Source of the DNA: Erythrobacter sp. HL-111
GTDB taxonomy: Bacteria; Pseudomonadota; Alphaproteobacteria; Sphingomonadales; Sphingomonadaceae
Reading direction: 5' to 3'
NCBI RefSeq assembly: GCF_900105095.1
Contig: NZ_LT629743.1
Span: forward strand, 2,728,001-2,792,000
Length of the DNA stretch: 64,000 bases
Of the stretch, positions 3,717-50,015 are shown one piece after another (position 1 is the stretch's first letter; each line of letters starts with the position of its first letter). The notes below the pieces were generated by a model. The model was given only the letters and a program-made list of their open reading frames with translations. It did not search any database and was not told where the DNA came from. The translations under genes were made by a program, and so were the position numbers.

Positions 3717-3891
3717 ATGCCTCACTCTTACATAAGTGTGAGGTCCTGTCCGGTCATTTTGGGGGCCGCTTCAGTGCGGCGGCGTAGAGCGGGCGTGCGG
3801 CACCGCTGGCGTCTGTTTCACCGCGCTGTGATCGATGGGCTTTTCTGGTTGAAGGACTTGGCTCGGGGTTTCTGCGGCACTGCCGCGCCCG

Positions 3892-5262
3892 CTACGTCGG
3901 CGCAGGCTTGAGCGCGAGAACGATGGCACGCATCAGATCGGCATCGGGGCACGCAGAGGCGAACGCTACGCGGATTCGGGTGGCGCTTTCCATGACGCGG
4001 GCAGCAACCTTGAGCAGCCGCAGGCGCAGGGTCGTAAACTCGGCTTTTGCCAGAGCGGTGGTCTTTGGGATCGCCTGCTGAACGCGCCACAGCAGCCAGT
4101 AGGCAGCGGTGTGCAGGATCAGGCGCATCTGGTTGGCGTTCGCCGACCGGCACGAGGTGCGGTCACTGGCCAGCTGGGTCTTGTGCAGCTTGATCAAGTT
4201 CTCGGCCTGCCCGCGCGCACAGTAGAGCGTGTCATAGATGTATTCAGCCGAGCCTTGGGTTAGCGATGTGACGACATAGCGGATATCCATGCCCAGCGTG
4301 CTGGCCTCGATCCTGGCGACGACGCGGCGCTGGCGGTTCCAGCTCTTCGCGCCGTAGCGGGTCTCGGCATAGCTGCGCAGCACCGGGTGCTGGCCCTCGG
4401 CGCGGCGGACCGCACAGGCATCGGCGGCAGTGACGATGACGGGATCGGCGCGCAGCGCGGCGTTGGTCGGCAGGCCGAACACATAATCGACGTCGGCAGC
4501 CTCGCAGAACGCCATGACCTCAGGGCGCCCATAATGCCCGTCGCCTCGGATGGTGATGTGGGTATCGGGCCAGTGGCGGCGAAGATGACGCACCAGGCGG
4601 CGGATATGGCCCGCCGCTTCCTTGCCCGAAGGCGTCTTGCCCGTGCGCAGCAGCACCGCCACCGGCCGGCCCGTTGCCGTGTCGTAGACATGGATCGGCA
4701 GGAAGCAGCGCTCCCCATGATGTCCGTTCCAGAAGGAGAGTTGCTGATAGCCGTGCACGACGTCGCAGGTGTCATCGATATCCAGCGTCACCGCCGCCGG
4801 CGGAGTGGGGTAGCTGGCGCAGTAGATGTCGATCATGATCCCCAGCATCTTTGCCAGCTCGCGCGTGCTCGGCGCATTCTCCCAGCGGCTCATCGTCGGT
4901 TGGCTGGCCAACCCCGCACCCGATCCCGGCAGCTTGCCCAGCGCAAGGCGGAAGCCCGGATCATCGCGCAGAGCGTCGAGATCATCGGCATCCTCATAGC
5001 CGCAGGCGATCGCGAACATCCGCGCGCGCAGGATATCTTCAAGCCGATGAACCACCCGAGCAGGATCGCGCGGATCGGCAATACACGCCGCAAGCCGCTG
5101 GCAGAGCCCCATCATGCGCTCGGCCTGAGCCAGCACCAGCACCCCGCCATCCGAGGTCAGCCTGCCGCCGTCAAACGCAGCTGTGACCTTCTTGCCGCGC
5201 ACTGCTGGAAACGAAAATACGGACGCGCTATCATCGCATCCGGCGGGTGTGGTCTGTGGCAT
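3892..5262 (-). CDS. IS1380-family transposase, copy 1
   Basis: DDE transposase of 456 residues (Tnp_1 group, IS1380 type). The N-terminus MPQTTPAGCDD is followed by a conserved N-terminal block (FDGGRLTSDGGVLVLAQAERMM), a candidate acidic motif LDIDDTCDVVHG near residue 166 and ITIRGDGHYGRPEV near residue 240, with GQAENLIKLHK further on. The frame is complete. It differs from copies 3 and 4 in a central cluster (for example RAEGQHPVLRS for RAECQLPVLRS, AADVDYVFG for AAHVDYVFG and VAVLLRTG for VAMLLRTG), matching the divergent DNA block at 4381-4656. Confidence 0.93.
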   Translation of the reverse strand: MPQTTPAGCDDSASVFSFPAVRGKKVTAAFDGGRLTSDGGVLVLAQAERMMGLCQRLAACIADPRDPARVVHRLEDILRARMFAIACGYEDADDLDALRDDPGFRLALGKLPGSGAGLASQPTMSRWENAPSTRELAKMLGIMIDIYCASYPTPPAAVTLDIDDTCDVVHGYQQLSFWNGHHGERCFLPIHVYDTATGRPVAVLLRTGKTPSGKEAAGHIRRLVRHLRRHWPDTHITIRGDGHYGRPEVMAFCEAADVDYVFGLPTNAALRADPVIVTAADACAVRRAEGQHPVLRSYAETRYGAKSWNRQRRVVARIEASTLGMDIRYVVTSLTQGSAEYIYDTLYCARGQAENLIKLHKTQLASDRTSCRSANANQMRLILHTAAYWLLWRVQQAIPKTTALAKAEFTTLRLRLLKVAARVMESATRIRVAFASACPDADLMRAIVLALKPAPT

Positions 5263-5404
5263 ATTTTGCCCCGTTGCAGGTCTGGCTTAAGCAACCACAT
5301 TCCTACAACAATGCAAATGCTTACGCCACTCCCGCCAACCCGTCAGACCACCGCCGGTGAATAATCCGGGCTAAAGTCGATCAGCCACTCGAAGGAGGAA
5401 AGTC

Positions 5405-6628
5405 ATGAAGACTAGGCGGCGCACCATCCCCGAAAATCGCGGGAATATGGGTGAGGCCGGGTTGCCCTCGGAGGATAAAAAGCTTCGAGGCCGGAAGCAC
5501 TGGGCACCTGCCGGTGGAACCGGCGGGTTGTCGCGCCGCGCCGCAATGGCTGGGCTCGGGATTGCCCTGGCGACCGGAATTTCGGCCTGCGGCGCGTCCG
5601 GCGGTGCTTCCGCTCAGGAGCGGCTGCGTGACCGGATCCGGCGACGCGTCGCCGAGCGGCGCGGAATTGTGCTGCCGGAGCCCCCCAACGATCTGCCCAG
5701 GCAATCCGTGGCCGATCCGCGTGCGGTCGAGGGACGGTTCGCCGTCATCGAACGCGACGGTGTCTGGACCGATCCTGCGCGTGGCGGCCGGGCTGTGCCG
5801 TGGCGCGCTTTCCTTCCGAACAGGCCTGGTCGGGCGCCCGTGGCGCTGTATTCCCACGGTGCGGGCGGAACCCGCGACAGCGGGCGGCAATATGGGACGC
5901 ATCTGGCCAGCCACGGCATCGCATCCGTGCATCTGCAGCATCCTGGAAGCGACCGGGCCGCTTTCCAGGATAATCTGCGGCAGGTCGGGCGAGCCATTCG
6001 CGACCCGCGCTTGGCTGCGCCGCGCTTCGGGGACATCGGTTTTGCAGTCGCGCAACTGCAAACCTCACGATCGGAGATCTCTGACGGAATCAATGCACGG
6101 CAGCTGGCGGTTTATGGGCACTCTTTCGGCGCGATCACCACGCTGATAGCGGCGGGTCAGCGGGTGGAGGGTTTCGACCGTAGCTTCGCTTTGCCGTCTC
6201 TGAAAGCCGCCGTTGCGCTAAGCCCTTCGCCGCCGCGAGAGCATTATGGCGACGTAGAGAGCGCATTCGCAGACATGCTTGCGCCGATTCTGCACATCAC
6301 CGGCTCGCAAGACGATGCGCCGAACGGCGATTTCGACGCGGCGGCCCGGCAGGTTCCGTTTCGGGAGATCAATGACGTCGACCAATATTTCCTCAGCCTG
6401 CATGGCGCCAACCACTTTACCTTCAGCGGTGATCCCAATCCGCAATTCAGGGGAAGAAGCCTCGCCTATCCCGGCCTTGGTCGCCATCACGGCCTTATCA
6501 AGGCGTCGATGCTGGCCTTTTTTCAATGGACGCTTGAGGGCGATCTCGGGGCGAGAACGTTCCTTGACGATGAACTTGAAAGCTTCCTCATAAAAGAGGA
6601 CGTATTTTTATCAAAATCCGCGGCGTAA
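5405..6628 (+). CDS. Tat-exported alpha/beta-hydrolase lipoprotein
   Basis: Predicted hydrolase of 407 residues of the dienelactone-hydrolase/PAF-acetylhydrolase type (COG4188-like). The nucleophile elbow GHSFG lies near residue 240, an oxyanion-type SHGAGG near residue 150, and a candidate catalytic His in LHGANHFTF near residue 335. Residues 43-62 (SRRAAMAGLGIALATGISAC) look like a twin-arginine signal ending in a lipobox with Cys62, so an envelope location is inferred. The stretch before the signal is unusually long; a later start such as Met15 is possible, but a strong GGAGGAA site precedes the ATG at 5405. The gene begins only 35 bp from the end of IS1380 copy 1, so its native upstream region is probably lost. 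Substrate unknown. Confidence 0.8.
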   Translation: MKTRRRTIPENRGNMGEAGLPSEDKKLRGRKHWAPAGGTGGLSRRAAMAGLGIALATGISACGASGGASAQERLRDRIRRRVAERRGIVLPEPPNDLPRQSVADPRAVEGRFAVIERDGVWTDPARGGRAVPWRAFLPNRPGRAPVALYSHGAGGTRDSGRQYGTHLASHGIASVHLQHPGSDRAAFQDNLRQVGRAIRDPRLAAPRFGDIGFAVAQLQTSRSEISDGINARQLAVYGHSFGAITTLIAAGQRVEGFDRSFALPSLKAAVALSPSPPREHYGDVESAFADMLAPILHITGSQDDAPNGDFDAAARQVPFREINDVDQYFLSLHGANHFTFSGDPNPQFRGRSLAYPGLGRHHGLIKASMLAFFQWTLEGDLGARTFLDDELESFLIKEDVFLSKSAA

Positions 6629-6654
6629 AAGTCAAATAACAGACGCGGCCCAAC

Positions 6655-7143
6655 ATGACCATTCCCTGGGAATTCGTCTCGATCTTTTTGCTCCGATTGG
6701 GGCTGGTGGCTCTGTTCGTGCCTTTCAGCGTTTATTATATGCTGCGCGACTTCCGAGGCGCGGCGCGACATGCAGCCTCGGCAGGGGTCGGCCGAAGCGT
6801 CGCCCAGTGGATGATCCTGGCAGCGATCCTTCTCAAGCTCGTCGCAACGCTCGGCGTGCTGACCGGTGTAGCCGATCGCCTGTGCTTTCTCTTGCTCGCT
6901 ACCTTCTGTGTCGGAACGGCGCTTATGTACAAGCGGTTCTGGACTGGTGACGGCGTAGCGTTCGCCTCAGAGAACGCCAATCTACCGATATTCTGGGACT
7001 TCCTGAAAAACATCTCACTCGCCGCCGCCTTTATCCTTATCGGCTTCGGTTCCGGCGCTGAGAGTTTCCGACAGGGGCTCGAGGAATTTATTCAATCTCC
7101 CTTTGCATCAAGCAGGCCCTATGGTGGCGGGATCTTGCGATGA
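6655..7143 (+). CDS. DoxX-family membrane protein
   Basis: A 162-residue inner-membrane protein with four hydrophobic segments, at about residues 7-28, 48-68, 73-92 and 115-135. It has the DoxX-type layout of a short N-terminal helix, a charged YMLRDFRGAARH loop, and an FWDFLKNISLAAAFILI segment near the end. DoxX proteins are linked to quinone or thiol redox steps, but the role here is unknown. It follows the Tat hydrolase by 26 bp on the same strand, so co-transcription is likely. Its stop overlaps (ATGA) a 24-codon frame that soon ends. IS1380 copy 2 starts about 100 bp downstream. Confidence 0.7.
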   Translation: MTIPWEFVSIFLLRLGLVALFVPFSVYYMLRDFRGAARHAASAGVGRSVAQWMILAAILLKLVATLGVLTGVADRLCFLLLATFCVGTALMYKRFWTGDGVAFASENANLPIFWDFLKNISLAAAFILIGFGSGAESFRQGLEEFIQSPFASSRPYGGGILR

Positions 7144-7244
7144 CCGGCAAGACGCCCTTCCTTTGTTCCACCTGCTGGCGAGCAGACGAGCGCACTCGCG
7201 CGGGCCGGGAGTGAAACGGGATGCATCGGTATCAGGACATCTAG

Positions 7245-8902
7245 CCTCTCTTATTCACGGCGATGCGGTTGGGCGCCTCTCGGCGCGAGCTTGACGCCAC
7301 TGCTGCGTGCGGCGGCGTAGAGCGGGCGTGCGGCACCGCTGGCGTCTGTTTCACCGCGCTGTGATCGATGGGCTTTTCTGGTTGAAGGACTTGGCTCGGG
7401 GTTTCTGCGGCACTGCCGCGCCCGCTACGTCGGCGCAGGCTTGAGCGCGAGAACGATGGCACGCATCAGATCGGCATCGGGGCACGCAGAGGCGAACGCT
7501 ACGCGGATTCGGGTGGCGCTTTCCATGACGCGGGCAGCAACCTTGAGCAGCCGCAGGCGCAGGGTCGTAAACTCGGCTTTTGCCAGAGCGGTGGTCTTTG
7601 GGATCGCCTGCTGAACGCGCCACAGCAGCCAGTAGGCAGCGGTGTGCAGGATCAGGCGCATCTGGTTGGCGTTCGCCGACCGGCACGAGGTGCGGTCACT
7701 GGCCAGCTGGGTCTTGTGCAGCTTGATCAGGTTCTCGGCCTGCCCGCGCGCACAGTAGAGCGTGTCATAGATGTATTCAGCCGAGCCTTGGGTTAGCGAT
7801 GTGACGACATAGCGGATATCCATGCCCAGCGTGCTGGCCTCGATCCTGGCGACGACGCGGCGCTGGCGGTTCCAGCTCTTCGCGCCGTAGCGGGTCTCGG
7901 CATAGCTGCGCAGGACCGGGAGTTGGCACTCGGCGCGGCGGACCGCGCAGGCATCGGCGGCAGTGACGATAACCGGATCAGCGCGCAGCGCGGCGTTGGT
8001 CGGCAGACGAACACGTAATCGACATGGGCCGCCTCGCAGAAGGCCATGACCTCGGGCCGTCCATAATGCCCGTCACCGCGGATGGTGATGTGGGTATCAG
8101 GCCAGTGGCGGCGAAGATGGCGCACCAGACGCCGGATATGCCCTGCCGCCTCCTTGCCAGAAGGCGTCTTGCCCGTGCGCAGCAGCATCGCCACCGGCCG
8201 GCCCGTTGCCGTGTCGTAGACATGGATCGGCAGGAAGCAGCGCTCCCCATGATGTCCGTTCCAGAAGGAGAGTTGCTGATAGCCGTGCACGACGTCGCAG
8301 GTGTCATCGATATCCAGCGTCACCGCCGCCGGCGGAGTGGGGTAGCTGGCGCAGTAGATGTCGATCATGATCCCCAGCATCTTTGCCAGCTCGCGCGTGC
8401 TCGGCGCATTCTCCCAGCGGCTCATCGTCGGTTGGCTGGCCAACCCCGCACCCGATCCCGGCAGCTTGCCCAGCGCAAGGCGGAAGCCCGGATCATCGCG
8501 CAGAGCGTCGAGATCATCGGCATCCTCATAGCCGCAGGCGATCGCGAACATCCGCGCGCGCAGGATATCTTCAAGCCGATGAACCACCCGAGCAGGATCG
8601 CGCGGATCGGCAATACACGCCGCAAGCCGCTGGCAGAGCCCCATCATGCGCTCGGCCTGAGCCAGCACCAGGACCCCGCCATCCGAGGTCAGCCTGCCGC
8701 CGTCAAACGCAGCTGTGACCTTCTTGCCGCGCACTGCTGGAAACGAAAATACGGACGCGCTATCATCGCATCCGGCGGGTGTGGTCTGTGGCATATTTTG
8801 CCCCGTTGCAGGTCTGGCTTAAGCAACCACATTCCTACAACAATGCAAATGCTTACGCCACTCCCGCCAACCCGTCAGACCACCGCCGGTGAATAATCCG
8901 GG
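7245..8902 (-). mobile_element. IS1380-family element, copy 2
   Basis: Full-length element of 1658 bp. The left end is CCTCTCTTATTCACGGCG and the right end, on the minus strand, is CCCGGATTATTCACCGG; the shared TTATTCAC core marks the terminal inverted repeats. The flanking tetranucleotides are CTAG on the left (7241-7244) and ATAA on the right (8903-8906). They do not match, so this copy does not have the flanks of a simple insertion. One base is missing in the transposase near 8008 compared with copies 3 and 4, giving 1658 rather than 1659 bp. Confidence 0.92.
7425..8794 (-). pseudogene. IS1380-family transposase, copy 2, frameshifted
   Basis: The same transposase as the intact 456-residue copies, but a single C is missing near 8008 (the plus strand reads CAGACGAAC where intact copies read CAGACCGAAC). 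The frame breaks at about residue 262, just after the HVDYVF segment, so the first part (from 8794) runs into a foreign tail and the C-terminal part (GMDIRYVVTSLTQG onward) is left in another frame. The element could move only if transposase is supplied by another copy. Confidence 0.9.
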
Positions 8903-9085
8903 ATAACCCGGCATGTCGTACCAATGGCCTTTTTACTTTTCGGCCAGTGCCGGAATTACCCGGTGCCAGGCAAAGGACGACCATGGCCAGCCATGGGCCA
9001 GAACGAGCGCCGGACCGGTACCGGCCGTTCCGTAAGCCACAATGCCGGCAGGTGTCGCAACGGTCTGATTAAGGTTCCAGTGCAT
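8903..9085 (-). pseudogene. Alpha/beta-hydrolase N-terminal fragment cut by IS1380 copy 2
   Basis: Reading the minus strand from an ATG at 9085 gives about 60 codons that look like the start of a haloalkane-dehalogenase or epoxide-hydrolase type alpha/beta-hydrolase: VAYGTAGTGPALVLAHGWP, then SSFAWHRVIPALAEK, an in-frame TAA (8933-8935), then HWYDMPGY up to the IS1380 border. HGWP and YDMPGYG are known motifs of this fold. So the gene has both a premature stop and a truncation at the IS end. The missing C-terminal part, including nucleophile and base, is not on the other side of the IS, which points to a deletion. A purple-assay-like functional call is not possible; no catalytic residues remain. 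Confidence 0.65.
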
Positions 9086-9324
9086 CAAATTTCTCCTTCA
9101 GCCAGTGCCCTTCGATCCGCGCAACGTGATGATATCGGGCGCGCCGCGATAATTAGCGCACCTTCTTTCGCAGCCATGCTTGGTGCCAGCCCTCGAATGC
9201 GCCTTCCAGATTGGTGCCATTGATTGCCTTGCTGAGCCTGTTTTGCCGCCGCTGTCAGTGCTGCCTCAAAGCAGCGGCACGGGTCGTTTTCGCATCGGCC
9301 GTTGAGAGGGGCTTGACCTGTATT
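9086..9324 (-). other. Gap between hydrolase fragment and TonB receptor, degraded coding remnants
   Basis: No intact gene is seen. On the minus strand one frame reads FEGWHQAWLRKKVR, a stop, then VARIEGHWLKEKFDALEP and a stop that overlaps the start of the hydrolase fragment. This looks like the decayed C-terminal part of an upstream gene, but I cannot name the family. The part nearest the receptor probably holds its promoter; a TTGACC at 9313-9318 is a possible -35 box, without a convincing -10. Confidence 0.35.
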
Positions 9325-9340
9325 GTTACCCTAAAGTAGC
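9325..9340 (+). promoter_or_regulatory. Putative operator in front of the TonB receptor gene
   Basis: GTTACCCTAAAGTAGC is an imperfect palindrome (GnTACC-N4-AGTAnC). Its arms match those of the site at 14927-14942, read toward the M28-like gene. It lies 48 bp before the receptor start. The likely ligand is the TetR regulator encoded between the two sites; that pairing is inference. Confidence 0.5.
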
Positions 9341-9388
9341 AATGGCCTCAGGTGCTCACAAGAATGCATCTGAGGAGAGAGTGAAATT

Positions 9389-11632
9389 ATGCGTAAATTG
9401 CTGCTGGGCGGTTCAGGCATGGCGGCCTGCATGGCCAATATGGGGGTGTTCGCACCAGCTTTGGCTGCGCAGGAAAGCGCGGCTGAAGAGGATACCAATG
9501 TCATTATTGTCACTGCGCGCCGTATCGCGGAAGGGGTCGAGGACACGCCGGTCGCGGTCAGCGTGTTAGATGGCGATACATTGGACAATCTCGTTGTCGA
9601 TGAAACGGTTGATCTGGTCCGGCAGATCCCCAGCGCCAGCTTTGTCAGTGGCGGCCCGGCTTTCCTCGCTGACATATCGATCCGCGGGCAGGGCGCCGGG
9701 CGGCAGGGCTTCTCCGAATCGGCGACGGGGATTTACCGCAACGGGTTCTATATCGCGGGCGGCGGTTTCGGTGGCCGTTCGTTCAACCGGCTCGACCTGT
9801 TCGACGTTCGGGCGGTTGAGACCTATCGTGGGCCACAGGCTGCGCTTTACGGTCGGAATGCGGTTGGGGGGGCGGTCAACGTGATCACCAATGCGCCGCG
9901 CCGAAACACTCTCGAAGGCCGCGTCCGTGCCCGGTACGAGGATGTCGACCGATTTGACATTGACGGCGTGCTCAATCTGCCCCTGGGCGAAAATTTCGCG
10001 GCGCGTCTTGGTGGGTTTTACAGCGATCAGGATGATGGGTTCTACACCGACGTAAACACCGGTGAAGCGGTCGATTTCCAGAGCCATACCGGCCTGCGTG
10101 GTGCGTTGCGCGGGTGGATCGGAGAGCGCACCGACATTACCCTCACGCTGGAGCATTACTCCAACGAAACGCCGAGCTTTTCGGCACTGGGTGAGCGCCT
10201 GCCAGTCAATAATGGCGGGCTTCCGGTACCCGGAGCGGCCGATCCTGGGCCGTTTGAGCGCAATGCCGATACGATCGGGCGCGTCGACCTGGAGGAAACC
10301 AGCGTGTTTGCCGAACTCGCCAGCAATCTCGATTTTGCCGATCTCGATATCGTGTTTTCGTACAAGACGCGCGATGCCGAGCGGTTTGACGACGATCTCG
10401 ATCATTTCCTCGGGTTTCAGGGCGTCGGCGGTACCATGATCACCGTCACCCAAGCCGAGGATTTCGAGCGGTTTGGCGGCGAAGTGCGGCTTTCGTCGAA
10501 AGAAGGCGGGCGCTGGCAATGGCTGATCGGGGCCGATTTCCAGACCTTCGATGACGATGTCCGGCTGGCCAATGCCGGGAGTTCCTCTGTTCCCTCGCTC
10601 GCAGCGCTCGCGACACGCAGCGAAAATTTCGTCGAGGAACTGACCTCGTTTTCCGCTTTCGGGCTGGTGGGTTTCGATCTCACCGAGCGCCTGAACCTGG
10701 CGGTCGAGGCACGCCTGATCCGGGATGAAAAAGATTTCGTCTTCGTCCGCCAGCAATCTGGTGCGACGGTGATCGATACGGGGGACCTGAACGAGAAGGA
10801 GACCCGGTTCCTGCCGGCCGCCACCTTGCGTTACGAACTGACGGACGCTTCGAACCTGTATCTCCGGTTCGCCACGGGCTACCGGCCCTTCGGCTTCAAT
10901 ACTGGCGTACCGAGCGAGGATTTCGTCCCCTATGAGGGCGAGCTTGCCCGCTCCTATGAGATCGGGTGGAAGGGTTCGCTGTTCGACAATCGGCTGCGCT
11001 ATGCCCTGGCCGGATTCTACATGACGACTGACGATCCGCAGCTCGTCACTGCCATTTCGACGACCGATACGTCCACTGCCCTGCAGAATGTCTCCGGCTC
11101 CGAGGTCTACGGGCTGGAGGCAGAACTGGACTGGACCTTTCCGGTCTGGTCGGGCAGGCTGACCGGCGGCTTTCGCATTTCGACGATTGACGGCGAATTT
11201 GATGACGGAACCTCCATCCTGTCTTCGGTCGAGGGTGTGGGAATCGTCGAATTCGATCTGTCCGGCGCGCGGGTGCCGCGCACTCGCGACGTTATCCTTT
11301 CCTTTGACAGCTTTTATAATGTGCCGCTGTCCGAGGGCTTGAACCTGTTTTTCGGGGGAAGCCTGCAAGCCGAGGATGGCGGATTTGAAAATGCCATTGG
11401 CGATTCGCCCACACGGTTTGATTCGGGGATTCCCAATACCGCCTTTGCCGGTCGCTCGCTCGACGGTTTTCTGCTCGTAGATGCGCGCATCGGCCTGTCA
11501 GGCGAATGGTGGCGCATTTCTGCTTATGGCGCCAATATCACCGACGAAGTCTACGTGTTGCAGAATGTGTTGCAGAACAATTTCTACAACCAACCGGCTC
11601 GCTATGGCGTACAGGCATCGGTGACATTCTGA
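9389..11632 (+). CDS. TonB-dependent outer-membrane receptor
   Basis: A 747-residue receptor with a signal peptide (residues 1-27, ending PALAAQES), a TonB-box-like stretch (TNVIIVTARR), a plug domain with ISIRGQGAGRQGF and VETYRGPQAALYGRNAVGGAVNVIT, and a beta-barrel ending in the aromatic tail YGVQASVTF. Such receptors import substrates too large or scarce for porins, using energy passed on by TonB. No iron-siderophore gene is nearby; the neighbours are a TetR regulator, DUF1214/DUF1254 proteins and two exported hydrolase-like proteins, so a hydrophobic organic substrate is more likely than iron. A GAGGAGAG site lies upstream of the ATG at 9389. The palindrome at 9325-9340 suggests repression. 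Confidence 0.92.
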   Translation: MRKLLLGGSGMAACMANMGVFAPALAAQESAAEEDTNVIIVTARRIAEGVEDTPVAVSVLDGDTLDNLVVDETVDLVRQIPSASFVSGGPAFLADISIRGQGAGRQGFSESATGIYRNGFYIAGGGFGGRSFNRLDLFDVRAVETYRGPQAALYGRNAVGGAVNVITNAPRRNTLEGRVRARYEDVDRFDIDGVLNLPLGENFAARLGGFYSDQDDGFYTDVNTGEAVDFQSHTGLRGALRGWIGERTDITLTLEHYSNETPSFSALGERLPVNNGGLPVPGAADPGPFERNADTIGRVDLEETSVFAELASNLDFADLDIVFSYKTRDAERFDDDLDHFLGFQGVGGTMITVTQAEDFERFGGEVRLSSKEGGRWQWLIGADFQTFDDDVRLANAGSSSVPSLAALATRSENFVEELTSFSAFGLVGFDLTERLNLAVEARLIRDEKDFVFVRQQSGATVIDTGDLNEKETRFLPAATLRYELTDASNLYLRFATGYRPFGFNTGVPSEDFVPYEGELARSYEIGWKGSLFDNRLRYALAGFYMTTDDPQLVTAISTTDTSTALQNVSGSEVYGLEAELDWTFPVWSGRLTGGFRISTIDGEFDDGTSILSSVEGVGIVEFDLSGARVPRTRDVILSFDSFYNVPLSEGLNLFFGGSLQAEDGGFENAIGDSPTRFDSGIPNTAFAGRSLDGFLLVDARIGLSGEWWRISAYGANITDEVYVLQNVLQNNFYNQPARYGVQASVTF

Positions 11633-11819
11633 TGCCCGCCTGCCAGTCTGCCCGCTGCAAGCCGTACAGCATATCTCTGCTGAGGCGGGCGGCTCTTGCG
11701 AGCGCACTGTTCGCGTCTTGCTGGCCGGGACTTTCTCCGCCGCCAGACTAGCCGGGGGTGGACATGTTATGATCGCATGCTCACGAGATCACAATCATCA
11801 CTTCGGGAGGATACCGGCC

Positions 11820-12470
11820 ATGGCCGCCAATGTCGAAAAGCTCACCCGCTCGCGCCAGGCGATTGACTCGCGCAAGGAGCGACGCGAGAAATTCCTTGAT
11901 GCAGCTGCGGAAGTGCTGGCCGAACAGGGTCTGCGCGATACCACGATGGACCAGATCGCCGACCATATCGATGTCTCCAAGGTTGTGCTTTACCGGCATT
12001 TCGCCTCGAAGGAGGATCTGATCCATTCGATCCTTGAACGGATCGCCGAAAAGATGCTGGCACTCGATGCGCAGTGCGACCCGCATCCTGCGCGCCAGGG
12101 TGAGGCTACTTTGCAGCTGGCGCGCGAGAACCGCGCCGCTTTCATCATTATCTGCCGCGATGCGCGCAACGATCCGACCTATGGAGCCCATTACCAGCAA
12201 GTGCATGAGGCAATCTCGAGCCGTCTGCGCGAGCTGATGCTGAATGAGGGTGTCGACTCCCTGATCGCACATATGTGCGCTGAAACCTATACGGATACCT
12301 GCCTCAACGGCGCGCTGAACTGGCTACTCCATGCCGACCCCGCACGCGACGATGAATATGGCGAATGGCTTGCTGAAGGCGTGCTGAATATGTGCCGTGC
12401 GTGGCGCGCCCGCGCGCGAGATCCGCAGGGATTTCATGCGGTGGCCGGTCTGCGCGAAGCCGGGCAATGA
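11820..12470 (+). CDS. TetR/AcrR-family transcriptional regulator
   Basis: A 216-residue regulator. The N-terminal helix-turn-helix lies at about residues 22-65 (KFLDAAAEVLAEQGLRDTT, then MDQIADHIDVSKVVLYRHF, SKEDLI), with a ligand-binding C-terminal domain. The ATG at 11820 is chosen because a GGGAGGA site sits just ahead and the TetR homology begins soon after; the frame is open up to 11718. Its stop overlaps the next gene's ATG (ATGA). It lies between two genes that share a palindromic upstream motif, so it probably controls the receptor and the M28-like gene and perhaps its own operon. Effector unknown. Confidence 0.9.
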   Translation: MAANVEKLTRSRQAIDSRKERREKFLDAAAEVLAEQGLRDTTMDQIADHIDVSKVVLYRHFASKEDLIHSILERIAEKMLALDAQCDPHPARQGEATLQLARENRAAFIIICRDARNDPTYGAHYQQVHEAISSRLRELMLNEGVDSLIAHMCAETYTDTCLNGALNWLLHADPARDDEYGEWLAEGVLNMCRAWRARARDPQGFHAVAGLREAGQ

Positions 12471-13048
12471 CACGCTATATCGCGGGGATCGCGGCATTCC
12501 TTGTCCTGTGCGGCGTGGTTGGCTGGCTTGCTGGAACCCGCCTGGCCGAAGCCGCTGCCGATGGGCGGATTTTCGGCGGCGGCGAATTCGTAAATTACGG
12601 CAGCTGGCGGATTACCCAGGCCCTGGGCTCGCCCGATAGCGATCCGGTCCTGCGCGCGTGGATCGCGCGAACCGGTATCCTGCCGCTCGCCCGCTCGGAG
12701 GTCGCCTATTTCTTCACCGATACCGCGCCGGGGGACGCTCCGCTTGACGGAGGCTGCGACTATGAGGTGCGCGTGCCCGAGATCGGTGCGCGCTGGTGGA
12801 GCTTGGCGGCCTATGATGCAGATCACAAGCCGATCGCCAACCGCCTGGAACGCTATTCGATCAATTCCGATGCGGGCCACAGCCGAATCGTCCTTTCGCG
12901 CGCTGCGCCAGCGGAAGAGGATGCCTGGCTGCCTTTGGGCGAGGCGGATCGCTTTGAGTTGCTGTTCCGGGTTTACCAGCCGGATACGACATTTGATCCC
13001 GCCGCACCCGAGGCACTGCCAGCAATCGAAAGGATTGGCCCGTGCTGA
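12467..13048 (+). CDS. DUF1214 domain protein
   Basis: A 193-residue protein with an N-terminal membrane anchor or signal (YIAGIAAFLVLCGVVGWLAG) and a DUF1214 C-terminal fold (GSDPVLRAWIARTGILPLARSEVAYFF then YEVRVPEIGARWWSLAAYD and RLERYSIN). DUF1214 proteins usually occur with DUF1254, either fused or adjacent, as here. The biochemical role is not known; they are exported or periplasmic-facing. The start ATG overlaps the TetR stop, and the 3' end overlaps the next gene by 7 bp, so the three genes form one transcription unit. Confidence 0.8.
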   Translation: MTRYIAGIAAFLVLCGVVGWLAGTRLAEAAADGRIFGGGEFVNYGSWRITQALGSPDSDPVLRAWIARTGILPLARSEVAYFFTDTAPGDAPLDGGCDYEVRVPEIGARWWSLAAYDADHKPIANRLERYSINSDAGHSRIVLSRAAPAEEDAWLPLGEADRFELLFRVYQPDTTFDPAAPEALPAIERIGPC

Positions 13049-13590
13049 AAACCGCATTGCTCTATGCTGGCGCAGGCCTCGCTGTTTTTCTGGCTACCGG
13101 CTGGAGCGGCTTCCAGAGCCGCATTCACGCTATTCCCTATGAGGAGATGGCGCGGATCGAGGCGCTGATGAAATCACGGGGCGCGACCAACACCATGGTG
13201 CTTTCCCCACCGGTCACCCCGCAGACGCCGGTTCCGCGCAACAATCCTGATACGCGGCCGACCTATTGCTGGGTCGATCTTTCCGAGGGCCCGGTGCGGG
13301 TCAGCGGGCCGTTGCCCGAAAGCTACTGGTCGCTTTCGGTCTACACGCCGGACAGTCTCAATCCCTTCGTCGCCTCAGACCGCGACTTTGCGCCTGCGCA
13401 AGCGTTCGATTTCATTGTCGCGCGTCTTGGTGAAGCGCCGCAGGTGCTTCCCGACAGTGCCCGCCTAATCGAGATCGATGCGCTGAAGGCAGCGGTGCTG
13501 CTGCGCTATTACGTGCCGCGGCAGGAGGATATTGAGCAGATTGATGCGCTGCGCTGGGCAGCGCGCTGTGCGCCCTATTCGCCCGAATGA
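13042..13590 (+). CDS. DUF1254 domain protein
   Basis: A 182-residue protein with an N-terminal hydrophobic segment (ALLYAGAGLAVFLATGW) and a DUF1254-like body (RPTYCWVDLSEGPVRVSGPLPESYWSLSVYTPDS). It is shorter than the usual DUF1254/DUF1214 fusion; the two halves are encoded separately here in the order DUF1214 then DUF1254. Overlap of 7 bp with the gene before it suggests coupled translation. Its tail overlaps the convergent M28-like gene by 16 bp. Function unknown; an envelope location is inferred from the N-terminus. Confidence 0.78.
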   Translation: MLKTALLYAGAGLAVFLATGWSGFQSRIHAIPYEEMARIEALMKSRGATNTMVLSPPVTPQTPVPRNNPDTRPTYCWVDLSEGPVRVSGPLPESYWSLSVYTPDSLNPFVASDRDFAPAQAFDFIVARLGEAPQVLPDSARLIEIDALKAAVLLRYYVPRQEDIEQIDALRWAARCAPYSPE

Positions 13591-14909
13591 GCCGGGGCGA
13601 GGATCCGTGCGATGGCATCCCGGAAAGCGCGCGCCGGGCCGGCCACTAATTCGCCCGAAACCGCATTCATCCTGTCGCTCATTACATGGTGCAGTCGGTG
13701 CGCGCCAAATGCCCCGAACACGCGCGGATAGCCGTGGGCCGCGATATGAGCGAGTTCCCCGGCCGCCGTGTCGGGCGTGAGCGGATAGGCATTGGCAAGG
13801 CCCGGTTCGTCGGCAAAGGCGCGGCGCACTATCGGAAGAATGTCTGGCGAAGCCATCAGATAGCGCTGCGGATCGGCGTGATTGAGCGGCAGGAGTCGTC
13901 GCGGCGGTTCATGCCAGTCCCTTGCGGCAAAACCTGCACCGAGATGGACCCACAGAGCGGTCTGCTTCGGATCGGGAGCGCCATTGTCGAGCCACAGCCG
14001 ACCGCCCAGCTCGGCAAGCTCGTGGCCGCTTGCGGCGAACAGGGTCAGGCTGTGATCAGGCAATGCCCCCGGCAACCAGCGCGAGAGTGCGCGCATAACC
14101 GCCACGCCCGGTCCGCGCTCTCCGGCGCAATGCGTCCAGCCGCTGAGCGGCGTGCTGATGACGAGGCGGGGCCCGTCTCGCTCAAGCTGCGCGATCAGAT
14201 TCTCCGCAGGGCGTTGGCCGGCCGGGGCAGGCGTTGCCAAGCGGGCCGAGTGGCCTGCGAGCGCAGCATCGCGAAGCTTCTGCGCGCGCGAAGGTGCAGC
14301 GAGCGCGAGCAGCGGAGTGTCGCGTTTGGTATCGGTGTTGAGAAAGATCGCCTCGTCAGATGGCCCGTTGGTGATGAGAATGATAGCGCGCGCTTCGACT
14401 TCGCGCGCCATTGCGAGAAAAGGCGCGATGAGCGGCCCGTCAAGCGCGCTGTGGCGGCCATTGGGCAGTTCGGCGACGAGAATGGCGTCCGCCGCCTGCC
14501 CCATCGGCCCGGCCAGCGTGGCGTAGCACAACCTCCCTTCTACTTCGTGCCGTGCCCGGAAGGGGGGTTGGGCCGCAAGTGCCAGCGTCGCGCCGTCGGG
14601 AAGGACGAGCCTTGCCTCATAATCATCATGGCTGGGCACGGTGAAGCACTGGCGAGTGGTCGAATAACCGATCTGAGACCATTCGGCTTCCATCCAGTTG
14701 AGAACGGCGCGATTGGCGGTGCCGCCGCTGCGATGAATACCGAACCCGTCATAGGTTTCGAGATCGCGTTGCAGGCTCGCCACGTGGAAGGGATCGACCG
14801 GATCGGCGGATATTTGGCCTGCCCAGCCTTTACCGCCGCCAATCACGGAAAGCCCGGAGGCGGTCGCCCCTGCTGCAATGAGACCACGTCTGGAAATTCC
14901 CGTGCCCAA
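13575..14909 (-). CDS. Tat-exported M28-like (aminopeptidase-fold) protein, probable loss of metal ligands
   Basis: A 444-residue protein with a twin-arginine signal (SRRGLIAAGATASGLSVIGGG). The middle part resembles M28/PA-type exopeptidases: a protease-associated-like segment around residues 110-240, then LVISTPLSGWTHCAGERGPGVAVMRALSRWL, which aligns in style with the M28 block that normally carries the His-x-Asp metal ligands and GANDN, and TLFAASGHELAELGGRLWLDN in place of the usual EE-containing block. The normal ligands are not evident, so it may be inactive or use other residues. A palindrome at 14927-14942 lies just before the start. It converges on the DUF1254 gene. Assignment to M28 is by motif style only. 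Confidence 0.6.
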   Translation of the reverse strand: MGTGISRRGLIAAGATASGLSVIGGGKGWAGQISADPVDPFHVASLQRDLETYDGFGIHRSGGTANRAVLNWMEAEWSQIGYSTTRQCFTVPSHDDYEARLVLPDGATLALAAQPPFRARHEVEGRLCYATLAGPMGQAADAILVAELPNGRHSALDGPLIAPFLAMAREVEARAIILITNGPSDEAIFLNTDTKRDTPLLALAAPSRAQKLRDAALAGHSARLATPAPAGQRPAENLIAQLERDGPRLVISTPLSGWTHCAGERGPGVAVMRALSRWLPGALPDHSLTLFAASGHELAELGGRLWLDNGAPDPKQTALWVHLGAGFAARDWHEPPRRLLPLNHADPQRYLMASPDILPIVRRAFADEPGLANAYPLTPDTAAGELAHIAAHGYPRVFGAFGAHRLHHVMSDRMNAVSGELVAGPARAFRDAIARILAPAHSGE

Positions 14910-14926
14910 TTTTTAACTCCTCCCTT

Positions 14927-14942
14927 GCTACTAAGTGGTTAC
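14927..14942 (-). promoter_or_regulatory. Putative operator in front of the M28-like gene
   Basis: Read toward the gene, the site is GTAACCACTTAGTAGC, with the same arms (GTwACC and AGTAGC, 4-bp spacer) and the same orientation relative to its gene as the site at 9325-9340. It ends 17 bp before the start codon, where a bound repressor would block transcription. Confidence 0.5.
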
Positions 14943-15187
14943 ACTTCGGGTCTGGGTGGTGCAAGACTGTGAGCATCCCGGCGAGGTGCACTGGCCGAGA
15001 GAAAAACCTTTGTGTGGAATTGTGCGCTGTCGCTCCATGACGCCGAACCCAGCCCGATAACGCCAATGCGGAAGAGACTTGGGCCGATCTCATGGGTCAC
15101 ATTCGGGGCCTCGATGCAAGCGAGTTCCATGGTCTTGGCAGTATCGCAGTACCTGTCGGATAAATTTCGCGTCAGCCATTTTGCTTC

Positions 15188-15640
15188 TCAGCGCAATTTG
15201 GCTAGCATACGCGCCAACTCCGTCGTCTCGTCCGCGTCGAGCTTGCCGGCAAAATGCGTCGCGATGGCCTGTCGATAGGCCGACCACATCCGCCGCAGCA
15301 AGCGGCGTCCGTCCTGCGTGATTTTGAGCAGCTGTCCGCGTCCGTCGTCCACGCAGTCCTCGCGCTCAACGTAACCGCCCTTCGTCAATCGGTCGGTGAG
15401 CCGCGAAACGTTGTATTGCGCAAGGAGCATCCGCTCCTGAAGCTGATACGGCCGAAGGCCTTCGGGTCTTGCACGGTCAAGTTCCAGCAGCGCATCATAC
15501 CACGAAAGCGGGGGAAACCCCGCCGCTTTCAGATCCGCTTCGACTTTCGACAAAACCGCCTGCGAGACGCGAACAAGCCGTGCCCAGGCCGTGACGGCTT
15601 CATCTGAGAGTTCCCGGGTATCTTTCGTCATGGAGCCCAT
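15188..15640 (-). CDS. MarR-family transcriptional regulator
   Basis: A winged-helix regulator of about 150 residues: an N-terminal dimer helix (EAVTAWARLVRVSQAVLSKVEADL), helix-turn-helix (YQLQERMLLAQYNVSRLTDRL) and wing (GGYVEREDCVDDGRGQLLKITQDGRRLL). ATG codons at 15640 and 15631 and a TTG at 15646 are all possible starts. Two copies of the palindrome ATGCATCTGCAT lie right upstream (15651-15690) and probably form its operator. A divergent target gene would be expected to the right, but IS1380 copy 3 begins about 70 bp beyond the operator, so that gene may have been lost. Effector unknown. Confidence 0.88.
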   Translation of the reverse strand: MGSMTKDTRELSDEAVTAWARLVRVSQAVLSKVEADLKAAGFPPLSWYDALLELDRARPEGLRPYQLQERMLLAQYNVSRLTDRLTKGGYVEREDCVDDGRGQLLKITQDGRRLLRRMWSAYRQAIATHFAGKLDADETTELARMLAKLR

Positions 15641-15650
15641 TATCAAACGG

Positions 15651-15690: not shown

Positions 15691-15758
15691 TATTTCTGGA
15701 TACATCGGCAACAAATAGCCTGTGACGTTTTGGGCGCTCTTGGCGCTGTTGTTTTTAG

Positions 15759-17417
15759 CCTCTCTTATTCACGGCGATGCGGTTGGGCGCCTCTCGGCGC
15801 GAGCTTGACGCCACTGCTGCGTGCGGCGGCGTAGAGCGGGCGTGCGGCACCGCTGGCGTCTGTTTCACCGCGCTGTGATCGATGGGCTTTTCTGGTTGAA
15901 GGACTTGGCTCGGGGTTTCTGCGGCACTGCCGCGCCCGCTACGTCGGCGCAGGCTTGAGCGCGAGAACGATGGCACGCATCAGATCGGCATCGGGGCACG
16001 CAGAGGCGAACGCTACGCGGATTCGGGTGGCGCTTTCCATGACGCGGGCAGCAACCTTGAGCAGCCGCAGGCGCAGGGTCGTAAACTCGGCTTTTGCCAG
16101 AGCGGTGGTCTTTGGGATCGCCTGCTGAACGCGCCACAGCAGCCAGTAGGCAGCGGTGTGCAGGATCAGGCGCATCTGGTTGGCGTTCGCCGACCGGCAC
16201 GAGGTGCGGTCACTGGCCAGCTGGGTCTTGTGCAGCTTGATCAAGTTCTCGGCCTGCCCGCGCGCACAGTAGAGCGTGTCATAGATGTATTCAGCCGAGC
16301 CTTGGGTTAGCGATGTGACGACATAGCGGATATCCATGCCCAGCGTGCTGGCCTCGATCCTGGCGACGACGCGGCGCTGGCGGTTCCAGCTCTTCGCGCC
16401 GTAGCGGGTCTCGGCATAGCTGCGCAGGACCGGGAGTTGGCACTCGGCGCGGCGGACCGCGCAGGCATCGGCGGCAGTGACGATAACCGGATCAGCGCGC
16501 AGCGCGGCGTTGGTCGGCAGACCGAACACGTAATCGACATGGGCCGCCTCGCAGAAGGCCATGACCTCGGGCCGTCCATAATGCCCGTCACCGCGGATGG
16601 TGATGTGGGTATCAGGCCAGTGGCGGCGAAGATGGCGCACCAGACGCCGGATATGCCCTGCCGCCTCCTTGCCAGAAGGCGTCTTGCCCGTGCGCAGCAG
16701 CATCGCCACCGGCCGGCCCGTTGCCGTGTCGTAGACATGGATCGGCAGGAAGCAGCGCTCCCCATGATGTCCGTTCCAGAAGGAGAGTTGCTGATAGCCG
16801 TGCACGACGTCGCAGGTGTCATCGATATCCAGCGTCACCGCCGCCGGCGGAGTGGGGTAGCTGGCGCAGTAGATGTCGATCATGATCCCCAGCATCTTTG
16901 CCAGCTCGCGCGTGCTCGGCGCATTCTCCCAGCGGCTCATCGTCGGTTGGCTGGCCAACCCCGCACCCGATCCCGGCAGCTTGCCCAGCGCAAGGCGGAA
17001 GCCCGGATCATCGCGCAGAGCGTCGAGATCATCGGCATCCTCATAGCCGCAGGCGATCGCGAACATCCGCGCGCGCAGGATATCTTCAAGCCGATGAACC
17101 ACCCGAGCAGGATCGCGCGGATCGGCAATACACGCCGCAAGCCGCTGGCAGAGCCCCATCATGCGCTCGGCCTGAGCCGGCACCAGGACCCCGCCATCCG
17201 AGGTCAGCCTGCCGCCGTCAAACGCAGCTGTGACCTTCTTGCCGCGCACTGCTGGAAACGAAAATACGGACGCGCTATCATCGCATCCGGCGGGTGTGGT
17301 CTGTGGCATATTTTGCCCCGTTGCAGGTCTGGCTTAAGCAACCACATTCCTACAACAATGCAAATGCTTACGCCACTCCCGCCAACCCGTCAGACCACTG
17401 CCGGTGAATAATCCGGG
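15759..17417 (-). mobile_element. IS1380-family element, copy 3
   Basis: Full-length 1659-bp element with the same ends as the other copies. The flanks are TTAG on the left (15755-15758) and CTAA on the right (17418-17421); they are not a direct repeat. The element lies at the junction of accessory DNA and the tRNA-Leu region. It has a private change in the transposase (LVPAQAERM instead of LVLAQAERM) and shares with copy 4 the ACTGCCGG variant near the right end, where copies 1 and 2 have ACCGCCGG. Confidence 0.93.
15939..17309 (-). CDS. IS1380-family transposase, copy 3
   Basis: Intact 456-residue DDE transposase, nearly identical to that of copy 4 (one visible residue change, Leu to Pro, near residue 44) and to the unbroken parts of copy 2. 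The frame is complete, so together with copies 1 and 4 it could supply transposase to the frameshifted copy 2. Confidence 0.94.
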   Translation of the reverse strand: MPQTTPAGCDDSASVFSFPAVRGKKVTAAFDGGRLTSDGGVLVPAQAERMMGLCQRLAACIADPRDPARVVHRLEDILRARMFAIACGYEDADDLDALRDDPGFRLALGKLPGSGAGLASQPTMSRWENAPSTRELAKMLGIMIDIYCASYPTPPAAVTLDIDDTCDVVHGYQQLSFWNGHHGERCFLPIHVYDTATGRPVAMLLRTGKTPSGKEAAGHIRRLVRHLRRHWPDTHITIRGDGHYGRPEVMAFCEAAHVDYVFGLPTNAALRADPVIVTAADACAVRRAECQLPVLRSYAETRYGAKSWNRQRRVVARIEASTLGMDIRYVVTSLTQGSAEYIYDTLYCARGQAENLIKLHKTQLASDRTSCRSANANQMRLILHTAAYWLLWRVQQAIPKTTALAKAEFTTLRLRLLKVAARVMESATRIRVAFASACPDADLMRAIVLALKPAPT

Positions 17418-17611
17418 CTAAGCCCGCACGACTGCGCTTGCGGTCAGTTCTTTCCTGCCAGAGAAACTGGGGAAAAGGCCGCAATATCCGGCTCTCCGGG
17501 TGTGCTCTGGCACATCTGCCAATCCATTCCCGCCTGAAACCCCGCCGTACCGCGCGCTTTGCGGCGCCGGCCGAGCGAGCTCCGGTGTTTCCGGTCCCCT
17601 CGGAGACTGTT
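17418..17611. other. Junction between IS1380 copy 3 and tRNA-Leu, no gene seen
   Basis: This 194-bp stretch has no credible reading frame in either direction. It holds the flank CTAA of the IS and the downstream region of tRNA-Leu. I see no copy of the tRNA 3' end that would mark an attachment site, and no integrase gene is present anywhere in the window. Confidence 0.4.
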
Positions 17612-46665: not shown

Positions 46666-48162
46666 GTGAACGAGAGCGCCACCTCCATCCTCTTCAGCCT
46701 GCTCGGCATCCTTGCCATCCTCGGCATTGCCTTCGCGCTGTCCTCGGGCCGGTCGCATATCCGGCTGCGCGTGGTCGGCGCGGCGTTCGGATTGCAGGCG
46801 GCGATGGCGGTGCTGGTCCTGCGCGTGCCTTTCGGGCAGGAACTGATCGAGGGGCTGTCGCAGGGGGTGATCGCGCTGCTCGACTATTCGGTCGTCGGGA
46901 TCGAAAGCGTGTTCGGGCCGATGGACGACAATCCCTTCGCCACCAGCTTCGTGATCGCCGCGCTGCCGGTGATCGTGTTCTTCGCCGCGATCGTCGCGAT
47001 CCTCTACCATCTCGGCATCATGCAGCGGCTGGTGCGCTGGGTCGGCGGGGCGATCGGCTGGATCACCGGGGTCAGCCGGGTCGAAGCGCTGGGAAGCGCG
47101 GCCAACATCTTCGTCGGCCAGTCGGAAAGCCCGCTGGTCGTGCGGCCCTATCTCGCCGCGCTGCCGCCGGCGCAGCTGTTCACGCTGATGGCGGTCGGCA
47201 TGGCCGGCGTTGCGGGCACGATCCTTGCCGCCTATGCCAGCTTCATAGGCGAGGAGGCGGTGCCATTCCTGCTCGCCGCCGCGTTCATGTCGGCACCGGG
47301 CGGTATCCTGATGGCGAAGATCATCATGCCCGACGAGCCGGTCGCCCCCCACCGCGCGCCGCCCAATGTCGCGGCGATGGCGGGGGTGCGGCTGCGGGAC
47401 CACGCGCCCCCTCCGGGCGAGGGCACGCGGGTCGTCATGGTCGGCGCGAACGGGGAGGAGATCGAGCTTCCCCAGCCCTCCGGCGGACCGGACCGCGCCG
47501 CCATGGCGAGCGGGCCGGGCGCGGACGGCATCTACGAACCCGACGAGGAGATCGAACTCGCCGAGACCTTCGAGGAGGGCCAGCGCCCTGCCAACATCAT
47601 CGAGGCCGCGGCGCAGGGCACGCAGACCGGGGTCAAGCTCGCGGTCGCGGTGGGGGCCATGGTGATGGTCTTCGTCGCGCTGGTCGCGCTCGCCAACGGG
47701 ATCCTCGGCGGGATCGGTGCGGGCGTGGTCGCGCTCGCCGCCGGGATCGGCCAGCCGTTCGCCGCGGACACCGCCGCCTGGCTCGAGGCGCTGAGCTTCC
47801 AGGACCTGCTCGGCACGGCGTTCGCGCCGGTCATGTTCCTGATCGGCATTTCCGACTGGGAACAGGCGCGGATCGCGGGCGGATTGTTCGGGACCAAGAT
47901 CGTCCTCAACGAATTCGTCGCCTTCATCGATCTCGGCGCGATGACGGGCGACCAGCTGACCGAGCGCAGCCGGGCGATCATCACCTTCGCGCTGTGCGGG
48001 TTCGCCAATTTCTCTTCGATCGCGATCCAGATGGCGGTAACCGGGGGCCTTGCCCCGAACCAGCGGCCGGTGATCGCGCGGCTGGGCCTCAAGGCGCTCG
48101 CCGCGGGCAGCCTCGCCAACCTGATGAGCGCGGCGCTGGCCAGCCTGTTCCTGCCGCTCTAG
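46666..48162 (+). CDS. Concentrative nucleoside transporter (NupC/CNT)
   Basis: A 498-residue transporter that takes up nucleosides with ions. CNT motifs are GQSESPLVVRPYL, MSAPGGILMAK, KIVLNEFVAFIDLG and CGFANFSSIAIQMAV. A polar insert of about 90 residues with acidic tracts (YEPDEEIELAETFEEGQ) splits the membrane regions, longer than in E. coli NupC. The start is a GTG at 46666 (NESATSILFSLLG), since the frame upstream is not CNT-like. The stop codon TAG at 48160-48162 lies within the CTAG target of IS1380 copy 4, so the insertion left the coding sequence intact. Confidence 0.9.
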   Translation: MNESATSILFSLLGILAILGIAFALSSGRSHIRLRVVGAAFGLQAAMAVLVLRVPFGQELIEGLSQGVIALLDYSVVGIESVFGPMDDNPFATSFVIAALPVIVFFAAIVAILYHLGIMQRLVRWVGGAIGWITGVSRVEALGSAANIFVGQSESPLVVRPYLAALPPAQLFTLMAVGMAGVAGTILAAYASFIGEEAVPFLLAAAFMSAPGGILMAKIIMPDEPVAPHRAPPNVAAMAGVRLRDHAPPPGEGTRVVMVGANGEEIELPQPSGGPDRAAMASGPGADGIYEPDEEIELAETFEEGQRPANIIEAAAQGTQTGVKLAVAVGAMVMVFVALVALANGILGGIGAGVVALAAGIGQPFAADTAAWLEALSFQDLLGTAFAPVMFLIGISDWEQARIAGGLFGTKIVLNEFVAFIDLGAMTGDQLTERSRAIITFALCGFANFSSIAIQMAVTGGLAPNQRPVIARLGLKALAAGSLANLMSAALASLFLPL

Positions 48163-49821
48163 CCTCTCTTATTCACGGCGATGCGGTTGGGCGCCTCTCG
48201 GCGCGAGCTTGACGCCACTGCTGCGTGCGGCGGCGTAGAGCGGGCGTGCGGCACCGCTGGCGTCTGTTTCACCGCGCTGTGATCGATGGGCTTTTCTGGT
48301 TGAAGGACTTGGCTCGGGGTTTCTGCGGCACTGCCGCGCCCGCTACGTCGGCGCAGGCTTGAGCGCGAGAACGATGGCACGCATCAGATCGGCATCGGGG
48401 CACGCAGAGGCGAACGCTACGCGGATTCGGGTGGCGCTTTCCATGACGCGGGCAGCAACCTTGAGCAGCCGCAGGCGCAGGGTCGTAAACTCGGCTTTTG
48501 CCAGAGCGGTGGTCTTTGGGATCGCCTGCTGAACGCGCCACAGCAGCCAGTAGGCAGCGGTGTGCAGGATCAGGCGCATCTGGTTGGCGTTCGCCGACCG
48601 GCACGAGGTGCGGTCACTGGCCAGCTGGGTCTTGTGCAGCTTGATCAGGTTCTCGGCCTGCCCGCGCGCACAGTAGAGCGTGTCATAGATGTATTCAGCC
48701 GAGCCTTGGGTTAGCGATGTGACGACATAGCGGATATCCATGCCCAGCGTGCTGGCCTCGATCCTGGCGACGACGCGGCGCTGGCGGTTCCAGCTCTTCG
48801 CGCCGTAGCGGGTCTCGGCATAGCTGCGCAGGACCGGGAGTTGGCACTCGGCGCGGCGGACCGCGCAGGCATCGGCGGCAGTGACGATAACCGGATCAGC
48901 GCGCAGCGCGGCGTTGGTCGGCAGACCGAACACGTAATCGACATGGGCCGCCTCGCAGAAGGCCATGACCTCGGGCCGTCCATAATGCCCGTCACCGCGG
49001 ATGGTGATGTGGGTATCAGGCCAGTGGCGGCGAAGATGGCGCACCAGACGCCGGATATGCCCTGCCGCCTCCTTGCCAGAAGGCGTCTTGCCCGTGCGCA
49101 GCAGCATCGCCACCGGCCGGCCCGTTGCCGTGTCGTAGACATGGATCGGCAGGAAGCAGCGCTCCCCATGATGTCCGTTCCAGAAGGAGAGTTGCTGATA
49201 GCCGTGCACGACGTCGCAGGTGTCATCGATATCCAGCGTCACCGCCGCCGGCGGAGTGGGGTAGCTGGCGCAGTAGATGTCGATCATGATCCCCAGCATC
49301 TTTGCCAGCTCGCGCGTGCTCGGCGCATTCTCCCAGCGGCTCATCGTCGGTTGGCTGGCCAACCCCGCACCCGATCCCGGCAGCTTGCCCAGCGCAAGGC
49401 GGAAGCCCGGATCATCGCGCAGAGCGTCGAGATCATCGGCATCCTCATAGCCGCAGGCGATCGCGAACATCCGCGCGCGCAGGATATCTTCAAGCCGATG
49501 AACCACCCGAGCAGGATCGCGCGGATCGGCAATACACGCCGCAAGCCGCTGGCAGAGCCCCATCATGCGCTCGGCCTGAGCCAGCACCAGGACCCCGCCA
49601 TCCGAGGTCAGCCTGCCGCCGTCAAACGCAGCTGTGACCTTCTTGCCGCGCACTGCTGGAAACGAAAATACGGACGCGCTATCATCGCATCCGGCGGGTG
49701 TGGTCTGTGGCATATTTTGCCCCGTTGCAGGTCTGGCTTAAGCAACCACATTCCTACAACAATGCAAATGCTTACGCCACTCCCGCCAACCCGTCAGACC
49801 ACTGCCGGTGAATAATCCGGG
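48163..49821 (-). mobile_element. IS1380-family element, copy 4, with matching target duplication
   Basis: Full-length 1659-bp element flanked by CTAG on both sides (48159-48162 and 49822-49825), the 4-bp duplication expected for the IS1380 family. It lies directly after the stop of the nucleoside transporter gene. This is the clean reference for the element ends: CCTCTCTTATTCACGG at the left, CCCGGATTATTCACCGG read from the right. The most recent or least disturbed copy. Confidence 0.95.
48343..49713 (-). CDS. IS1380-family transposase, copy 4
   Basis: Intact 456-residue DDE transposase. It has the same amino-acid sequence as copy 3 apart from Leu in place of Pro in LVLAQAERM, and matches the readable parts of copy 2. 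Likely functional. Confidence 0.94.
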   Translation of the reverse strand: MPQTTPAGCDDSASVFSFPAVRGKKVTAAFDGGRLTSDGGVLVLAQAERMMGLCQRLAACIADPRDPARVVHRLEDILRARMFAIACGYEDADDLDALRDDPGFRLALGKLPGSGAGLASQPTMSRWENAPSTRELAKMLGIMIDIYCASYPTPPAAVTLDIDDTCDVVHGYQQLSFWNGHHGERCFLPIHVYDTATGRPVAMLLRTGKTPSGKEAAGHIRRLVRHLRRHWPDTHITIRGDGHYGRPEVMAFCEAAHVDYVFGLPTNAALRADPVIVTAADACAVRRAECQLPVLRSYAETRYGAKSWNRQRRVVARIEASTLGMDIRYVVTSLTQGSAEYIYDTLYCARGQAENLIKLHKTQLASDRTSCRSANANQMRLILHTAAYWLLWRVQQAIPKTTALAKAEFTTLRLRLLKVAARVMESATRIRVAFASACPDADLMRAIVLALKPAPT

Positions 49822-50015
49822 CTAGGGTGGCACGCACGTGGTCCCAGCTGCCCGGCGATTGCCGCTCCGCTGCCGGCAGCGGTCATAGGGGGCCGTCTCG
49901 CCCCTTGCCGTCTCCCCCCCTCGTCGCCTCACCCCTCGTCGCCTCCTCTCCGCGCGCGATTGAATAGCCATTCTCGCGCCTTATGTCCGGCGCGGACAAT
50001 TCCGGGATCAATGCC

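Follow-up and report, generated by a model that had tools for sequence, protein, structure and literature searches.

A candidate TetR operator shared by TonB receptor loci and a putative uptake and hydrolysis gene cluster in Erythrobacter sp. HL-111

This work concerns a small gene cluster of Erythrobacter sp. HL-111 that appears to import a nutrient and break it down, and a palindrome that occurs twice in it. The cluster lies in a stretch of 64,000 nucleotides (contig NZ_LT629743.1, positions 2,728,001 to 2,792,000), referred to below as the window, whose numbering is used throughout. On the forward strand, a gene for a TonB-dependent receptor of 747 aa (9389..11632), which contains both the plug (PF07715) and the barrel (PF00593) domains, is followed by genes for a TetR-family regulator (11820..12470; 216 aa; TetR_N PF00440, 60.2 bits against a cut-off of 24), a DUF1214 protein (PF06742; 12467..13048; 193 aa) and a DUF1254 protein (PF06863; 13042..13590; 182 aa, GTG start), the last two with N termini that appear hydrophobic by eye. 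The reverse strand carries a gene for an M28-like protein of 444 aa (13575..14909; TTG start), whose N terminus by eye is twin-arginine-like. The TetR and DUF1214 genes overlap by 4 bases, the start codon of the DUF1254 gene at 13042 is within the DUF1214 gene, and the DUF1254 and M28-like genes overlap tail to tail at 13575-13590, so that the gene order and overlaps given in a first-pass annotation of this DNA are borne out. One predicted operator is located at 9324..9341 (+), 47 nt 5' of the receptor start codon, and the other at 14926..14943 (-), 16 nt 5' of the M28-like start codon.

The first-pass annotation had also pointed out that the two sites share one arm sequence, oriented alike towards the gene that follows. 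Indeed, GTTACCCTAAAGTAGC at 9325-9340 (+) and GTAACCACTTAGTAGC at 14942-14927 (-) agree at 11 of 16 bases, and the full imperfect palindrome extends over 18 bp (9324-9341 and 14943-14926), with the left arms TGTTACC and TGTAACC and the inverted right arm TGCTACT in both sites. Among 400 pairs of 150-nt upstream regions generated with a Markov model, 27.5% reach a best match of 13/18 by chance, and 1% do so if both members are required to be equally palindromic. When the genome (3,191,868 bases, 3.19 Mb) was scanned with the 15-position pattern TGTWACC-N4-AGTAGCAA allowing up to three mismatches, 12 places were found, namely the window pair as 2 exact matches and 10 places with three mismatches; the reversed control pattern gave 8 and 8 in the same genome. 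The symmetrised pattern TGYWACY-N4-RGTWRCA, which can be derived from the window alone yet was written after the inverted repeats of related loci were known, has exactly two exact matches in the genome, both of them the window sites. Two further copies, each with one mismatch, are found elsewhere in the genome (G000:C1:898385-898402 and 3123439-3123456). A sigma-70 scan gave 1 site against 1.7 expected and none at either predicted operator. Given how often a comparable match arises by chance, the window pair alone is weak evidence, and it is the comparison across loci that makes the case strong.

An inverted-repeat search of the receptor/TetR intergenic regions in related loci recovered the same palindrome. 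The exact symmetrised pattern occurs in 7 of 86 loci, which are the window (L001), L003, L014, L040, L041, L085 and the unrelated locus L081; among the loci added later it is also present in L096, as well as in L094 and L095, whose sequences belong to the genomes already represented by L003 and L040. Nine lineages of homologous TetR genes have readable surroundings, and in five of them, the window included, an exact copy precedes the TonB receptor gene by 42-47 nt: 47 nt in the window, 42 in L014, 46 in L094, 47 in L096 (after correcting the receptor start codon by hand) and 44 in L085. Seven exact sites were counted in five loci, while 300 patterns with permuted arms gave a mean of 0.003 and a maximum of 1. 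The sixth lineage, L099, has a near copy, TGTAACTCGTGAGTTACG, with one mismatch, which is located 37 nt 3' of the TetR gene and 15 nt 5' of a receptor-like frame (L099:10216-10480). This frame has a signal-like start followed by EIVVTATRR, stops after 75 residues and is followed by a frame resembling an insertion-element protein; judging from these frames, the receptor gene has apparently been cut by an insertion element. In all, 2.03 Mb of loci contain 8 one-mismatch sites, three of which are the same L099 site. The remaining three lineages lack the site: the best matches in L097 and L098 have two mismatches, and L124 has a lone one-mismatch match, which falls inside a receptor gene. In L097 (8519-13766), the M28-like gene, TetR, GntR and receptor genes are found together in the absence of the palindrome, perhaps with a different operator.

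Conservation of the motif before related genes was a point on which the first-pass proposal could have failed, and the palindrome is indeed present upstream of receptor genes that have homologous TetR genes as neighbours. On comparison of the loci, this conservation makes a chance origin of the palindrome untenable, and the DNA switch site is very probably real. The association with TetR genes itself is partial, as it holds for five of the nine lineages exactly and for one approximately, with three against.

The TetR proteins that accompany the site have diverged considerably. The window protein is 32-36% identical to those of the four other exact-site groups and 31% identical to that of L099. 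Those of L040, L041 and L085 are identical to each other, L094 and L096 share 91%, and the L014 protein is 59-67% identical to both of these groups. In a tree, the inner supports are weak (30-65) and the site-bearing proteins do not group in a clade of their own. Relatives of the TetR protein were found in 4 of 298 genomes of the family at E 1e-20, counting its own genome, and, by profile search at E 1e-30, in 5 of 396 genomes of the order and 2 of 385 of the class; neither the family search nor the order profile search gave a match in other genomes of the genus. Related loci often contain GntR/FCD regulators in place of TetR, two of which were confirmed by Pfam, and one GntR-containing sequence cluster covers 35 loci.

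The gene behind the second site differs between loci. Only the site before the receptor, of the two on which the initial proposal relied, recurs at the same gene in relatives; among the loci compared, a site before the M28-like gene is peculiar to the window. In the Novosphingobium loci L040, L041 and L085 (exact) and in L014 (one mismatch; position 11414, about 21 nt 5' of the likely start, placed by eye), the second site precedes an exported esterase gene instead. L040, L041 and L085 thus have sites at the receptor/TetR region and at a PHB-depolymerase-like esterase. In L085 a one-strand run comprises the receptor, a PQQ dehydrogenase, an EthD-like gene, an acyl-CoA ligase and a fused DUF1254-DUF1214 gene, the esterase standing outside the run, behind the second site; in L094, receptor, esterase, PQQ dehydrogenase, acyl-CoA ligase and DUF1254-DUF1214 follow one site on one strand. 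Small EthD-like proteins recur (L006:352-1170, L068:9135-9908, L085:16306-17133), identified by a weak Pfam match in L006, by TIGR02118 in L085, and by membership of L068 and L069 in the L006 sequence cluster. The best PDB match of the Novosphingobium esterase is a feruloyl esterase (E 2.6e-12), and an oxidised-PVA hydrolase matches at E 4.1e-4. Breakdown of polyvinyl alcohol or feruloyl esters was considered and not adopted, as the window unit contains neither a dehydrogenase nor a ligase.

The window unit appears to have a further member outside the region originally assigned to it, namely an alpha/beta hydrolase of 407 aa (5405..6628, +) resembling PETase (PF12740, 29.2 bits, just above the cut-off of 28) and PAF-AH (PF03403, 30.3 bits), with, by eye, a twin-arginine-like N terminus and a lipobox-like ISAC, and a DoxX family protein (6655..7143, +). 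This pair (5405-7143) is counted in the unit because L006 (Marinicaulis flavus) contains, within about 9 kb, split DUF1214 and DUF1254 genes, a PETase-like gene, a GntR gene, a receptor (50%), a sulfatase and an M28-like gene (46%). Neighbours were compared in 79 genomic loci with members of the M28-like family, five of which (L006, L008, L033, L046 and L083) contain PETase/PAF-AH-like relatives, adjoining the receptor in L033 and L046 and separated from it by the one GntR gene in L006. In the window, a copy of an IS1380-family element with a frameshifted transposase (7240..8905, -; ends approximate) lies between the pair and the receptor. It is one of four copies in the same orientation, at about 3774-5375, 7240-8905, 15754-17420 and 48158-49825; a MarR-family gene (15188-15646) sits between the M28-like gene and one of them. 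CTAG stands at each end of the copy at 48.2 kb. The first copy is without the common left end and stops about 30 nt before the pair. Since copies flank the pair on both sides, its native promoter is probably gone. Target duplications cannot be matched up among the flanks of the three copies around the unit. How it was assembled therefore cannot be read from them, and the unpaired flanks suggest recombination between copies. The best reading is that the unit once held the hydrolase and DoxX genes, now split off by an IS1380 copy. The small share of genomes with TetR relatives, a G+C content that is lower at 9-15 kb (58-65%) than at 18-24 kb (69-75%), and the IS copies together suggest that the unit was gained horizontally.

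DUF1254 and DUF1214 are almost unstudied in the open literature, where five papers name the first and one the second. They match in the stretch of 20 of the 79 M28-like loci, a count that includes many close relatives and thus fewer independent events. In 99 genomes of the window's own family, DUF1254 has 39 matches, or about 0.0025 per 20 kb (an estimate for this family only), and a genome scan with DUF1214 gave no matches. The idea that DUF1254 always goes with this system did not hold: the 20 regions hand-picked from the 39 matches include none with an M28-like gene and eight with a TonB receptor. DUF1254 mostly lives away from M28-like loci; parts of the set of receptor, TetR, DUF and hydrolase genes do recur, but the DUF pair is not dedicated to it.

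The M28-like protein matches no Pfam family at E 1e-3; its fold is that of M28. We aligned its metal site to 3iib, BSAP, L100 and L102. In contrast to peptidase family M28 (BSAP 6hc6, 3iib), with zinc ligands H, D, E, D and H and a general-base Glu, several canonical positions differ, and the replacements are invariant in 22 aligned sequences. The place of HxD has no invariant His (two alignments put P254 there and the other two place neighbouring residues), the bridging Asp is replaced by E264 and the base Glu by H296, and the later Asp corresponds to H322 in one reference and is two columns off in the other; the ligand Glu (E297) and the final His are kept. The family comprises at least 157 relatives; a plasmid collection has three records, and viral contigs gave no confirmed relative. 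It is an M28-fold family linked to TonB, with altered active-site residues and unrecognised here by Pfam.

We consider it likely that a TetR repressor controls the TonB receptor and exported hydrolases through TGYWACY-N4-RGTWRCA. The regulator encoded at 11820-12470 would bind the palindrome, sit over the promoters from which the receptor and exported M28-like genes are transcribed and so repress both, until released by a nutrient-derived ligand, perhaps an acyl-CoA or a similar compound. The receptor would bring an ester-bearing or acyl compound into the periplasm, where exported hydrolases would process it, among them the PETase/PAF-AH-like protein and perhaps the M28-like one; the DUF1214/DUF1254 pair may play an accessory envelope role. 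Of the original idea of a dedicated import-and-processing unit for a hydrophobic compound, site conservation and a partial gene set speak in favour, whereas DUF exclusivity and the site before the M28-like gene find no counterpart in relatives.

Other explanations have to be weighed against this. If the M28-like protein were an active peptidase, a peptide-like compound might be imported and trimmed; this is unlikely, given the changed metal-site residues and the frequency of esterase-like and acyl-CoA ligase genes as neighbours. An iron or siderophore receptor locus would fit the best NCBIfam model of the receptor, the siderophore receptor TIGR01783, but its 99.8 bits fall below the curated cut-off of 223.5, and the hydrolases, PQQ dehydrogenase and acyl-CoA ligase that accompany related receptors make such a role improbable. 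There is even less to be expected of another regulator as owner of the palindrome, for example the MarR protein at 15188-15646: its gene is next to site 2 and a MarR-domain frame also occurs in L014, yet the site adjoins TetR genes in loci of varied content (scanned for MarR in part of their frames).

Beyond control by TetR in the window, it is possible, though we put it forward tentatively, that these loci form a new alphaproteobacterial regulon, in which TetR proteins down to 31% identity use one operator to control a TonB receptor and exported hydrolases, including a widespread M28-fold family with a metal site reshaped for a reaction other than that of a peptidase; DUF1254/DUF1214 proteins would be the envelope partners. 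The conserved operator offers a handle, as an inducer of the TetR protein would open the way to testing what the receptor, the M28-like protein and the DUF pair act on.

As the first-pass annotation had supposed, no described system of this composition was found in the open literature, subscription papers being outside the search. There, DUF1254 is not mentioned together with DUF1214, it appears with TonB-dependent receptors only in one paper, as a single table row, and nothing joins TonB-dependent, M28, Sphingopyxis, esterase and GntR. The closest characterised structures to the model of the window TetR are those of the acyl-CoA-binding regulators FasR and DesT, and FasR (NF053731) is also its best NCBIfam model, at 57.4 bits far under the equivalog cut-off of 330. 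FasR and DesT regulate lipid genes and are not known to control a TonB receptor. Four of the five themes (TetR, TonB receptor, esterase, operator site, acyl-CoA ligase) come together in one paper, which appears to deal with a Pseudomonas TetR, and the work on PheR concerns an IclR regulator. In the sphingomonad Sphingobium SYK-6, the TonB receptor DdvT likewise imports an organic, lignin-derived nutrient; neither a TetR operator nor M28-like or DUF1254/DUF1214 proteins figure in the available parts of these papers (PMC6874591, PMC8599685). The bile-salt cluster bsd I of Caenibius tardaugens resembles the window in that its catabolic genes are accompanied by a TetR regulator for which palindromic sites have been proposed; the term DUF is absent from the text of the paper, and the palindromes, ATAGGGCCATTG and GCATGCGGGATGC, differ from that of the window (PMC12882949).
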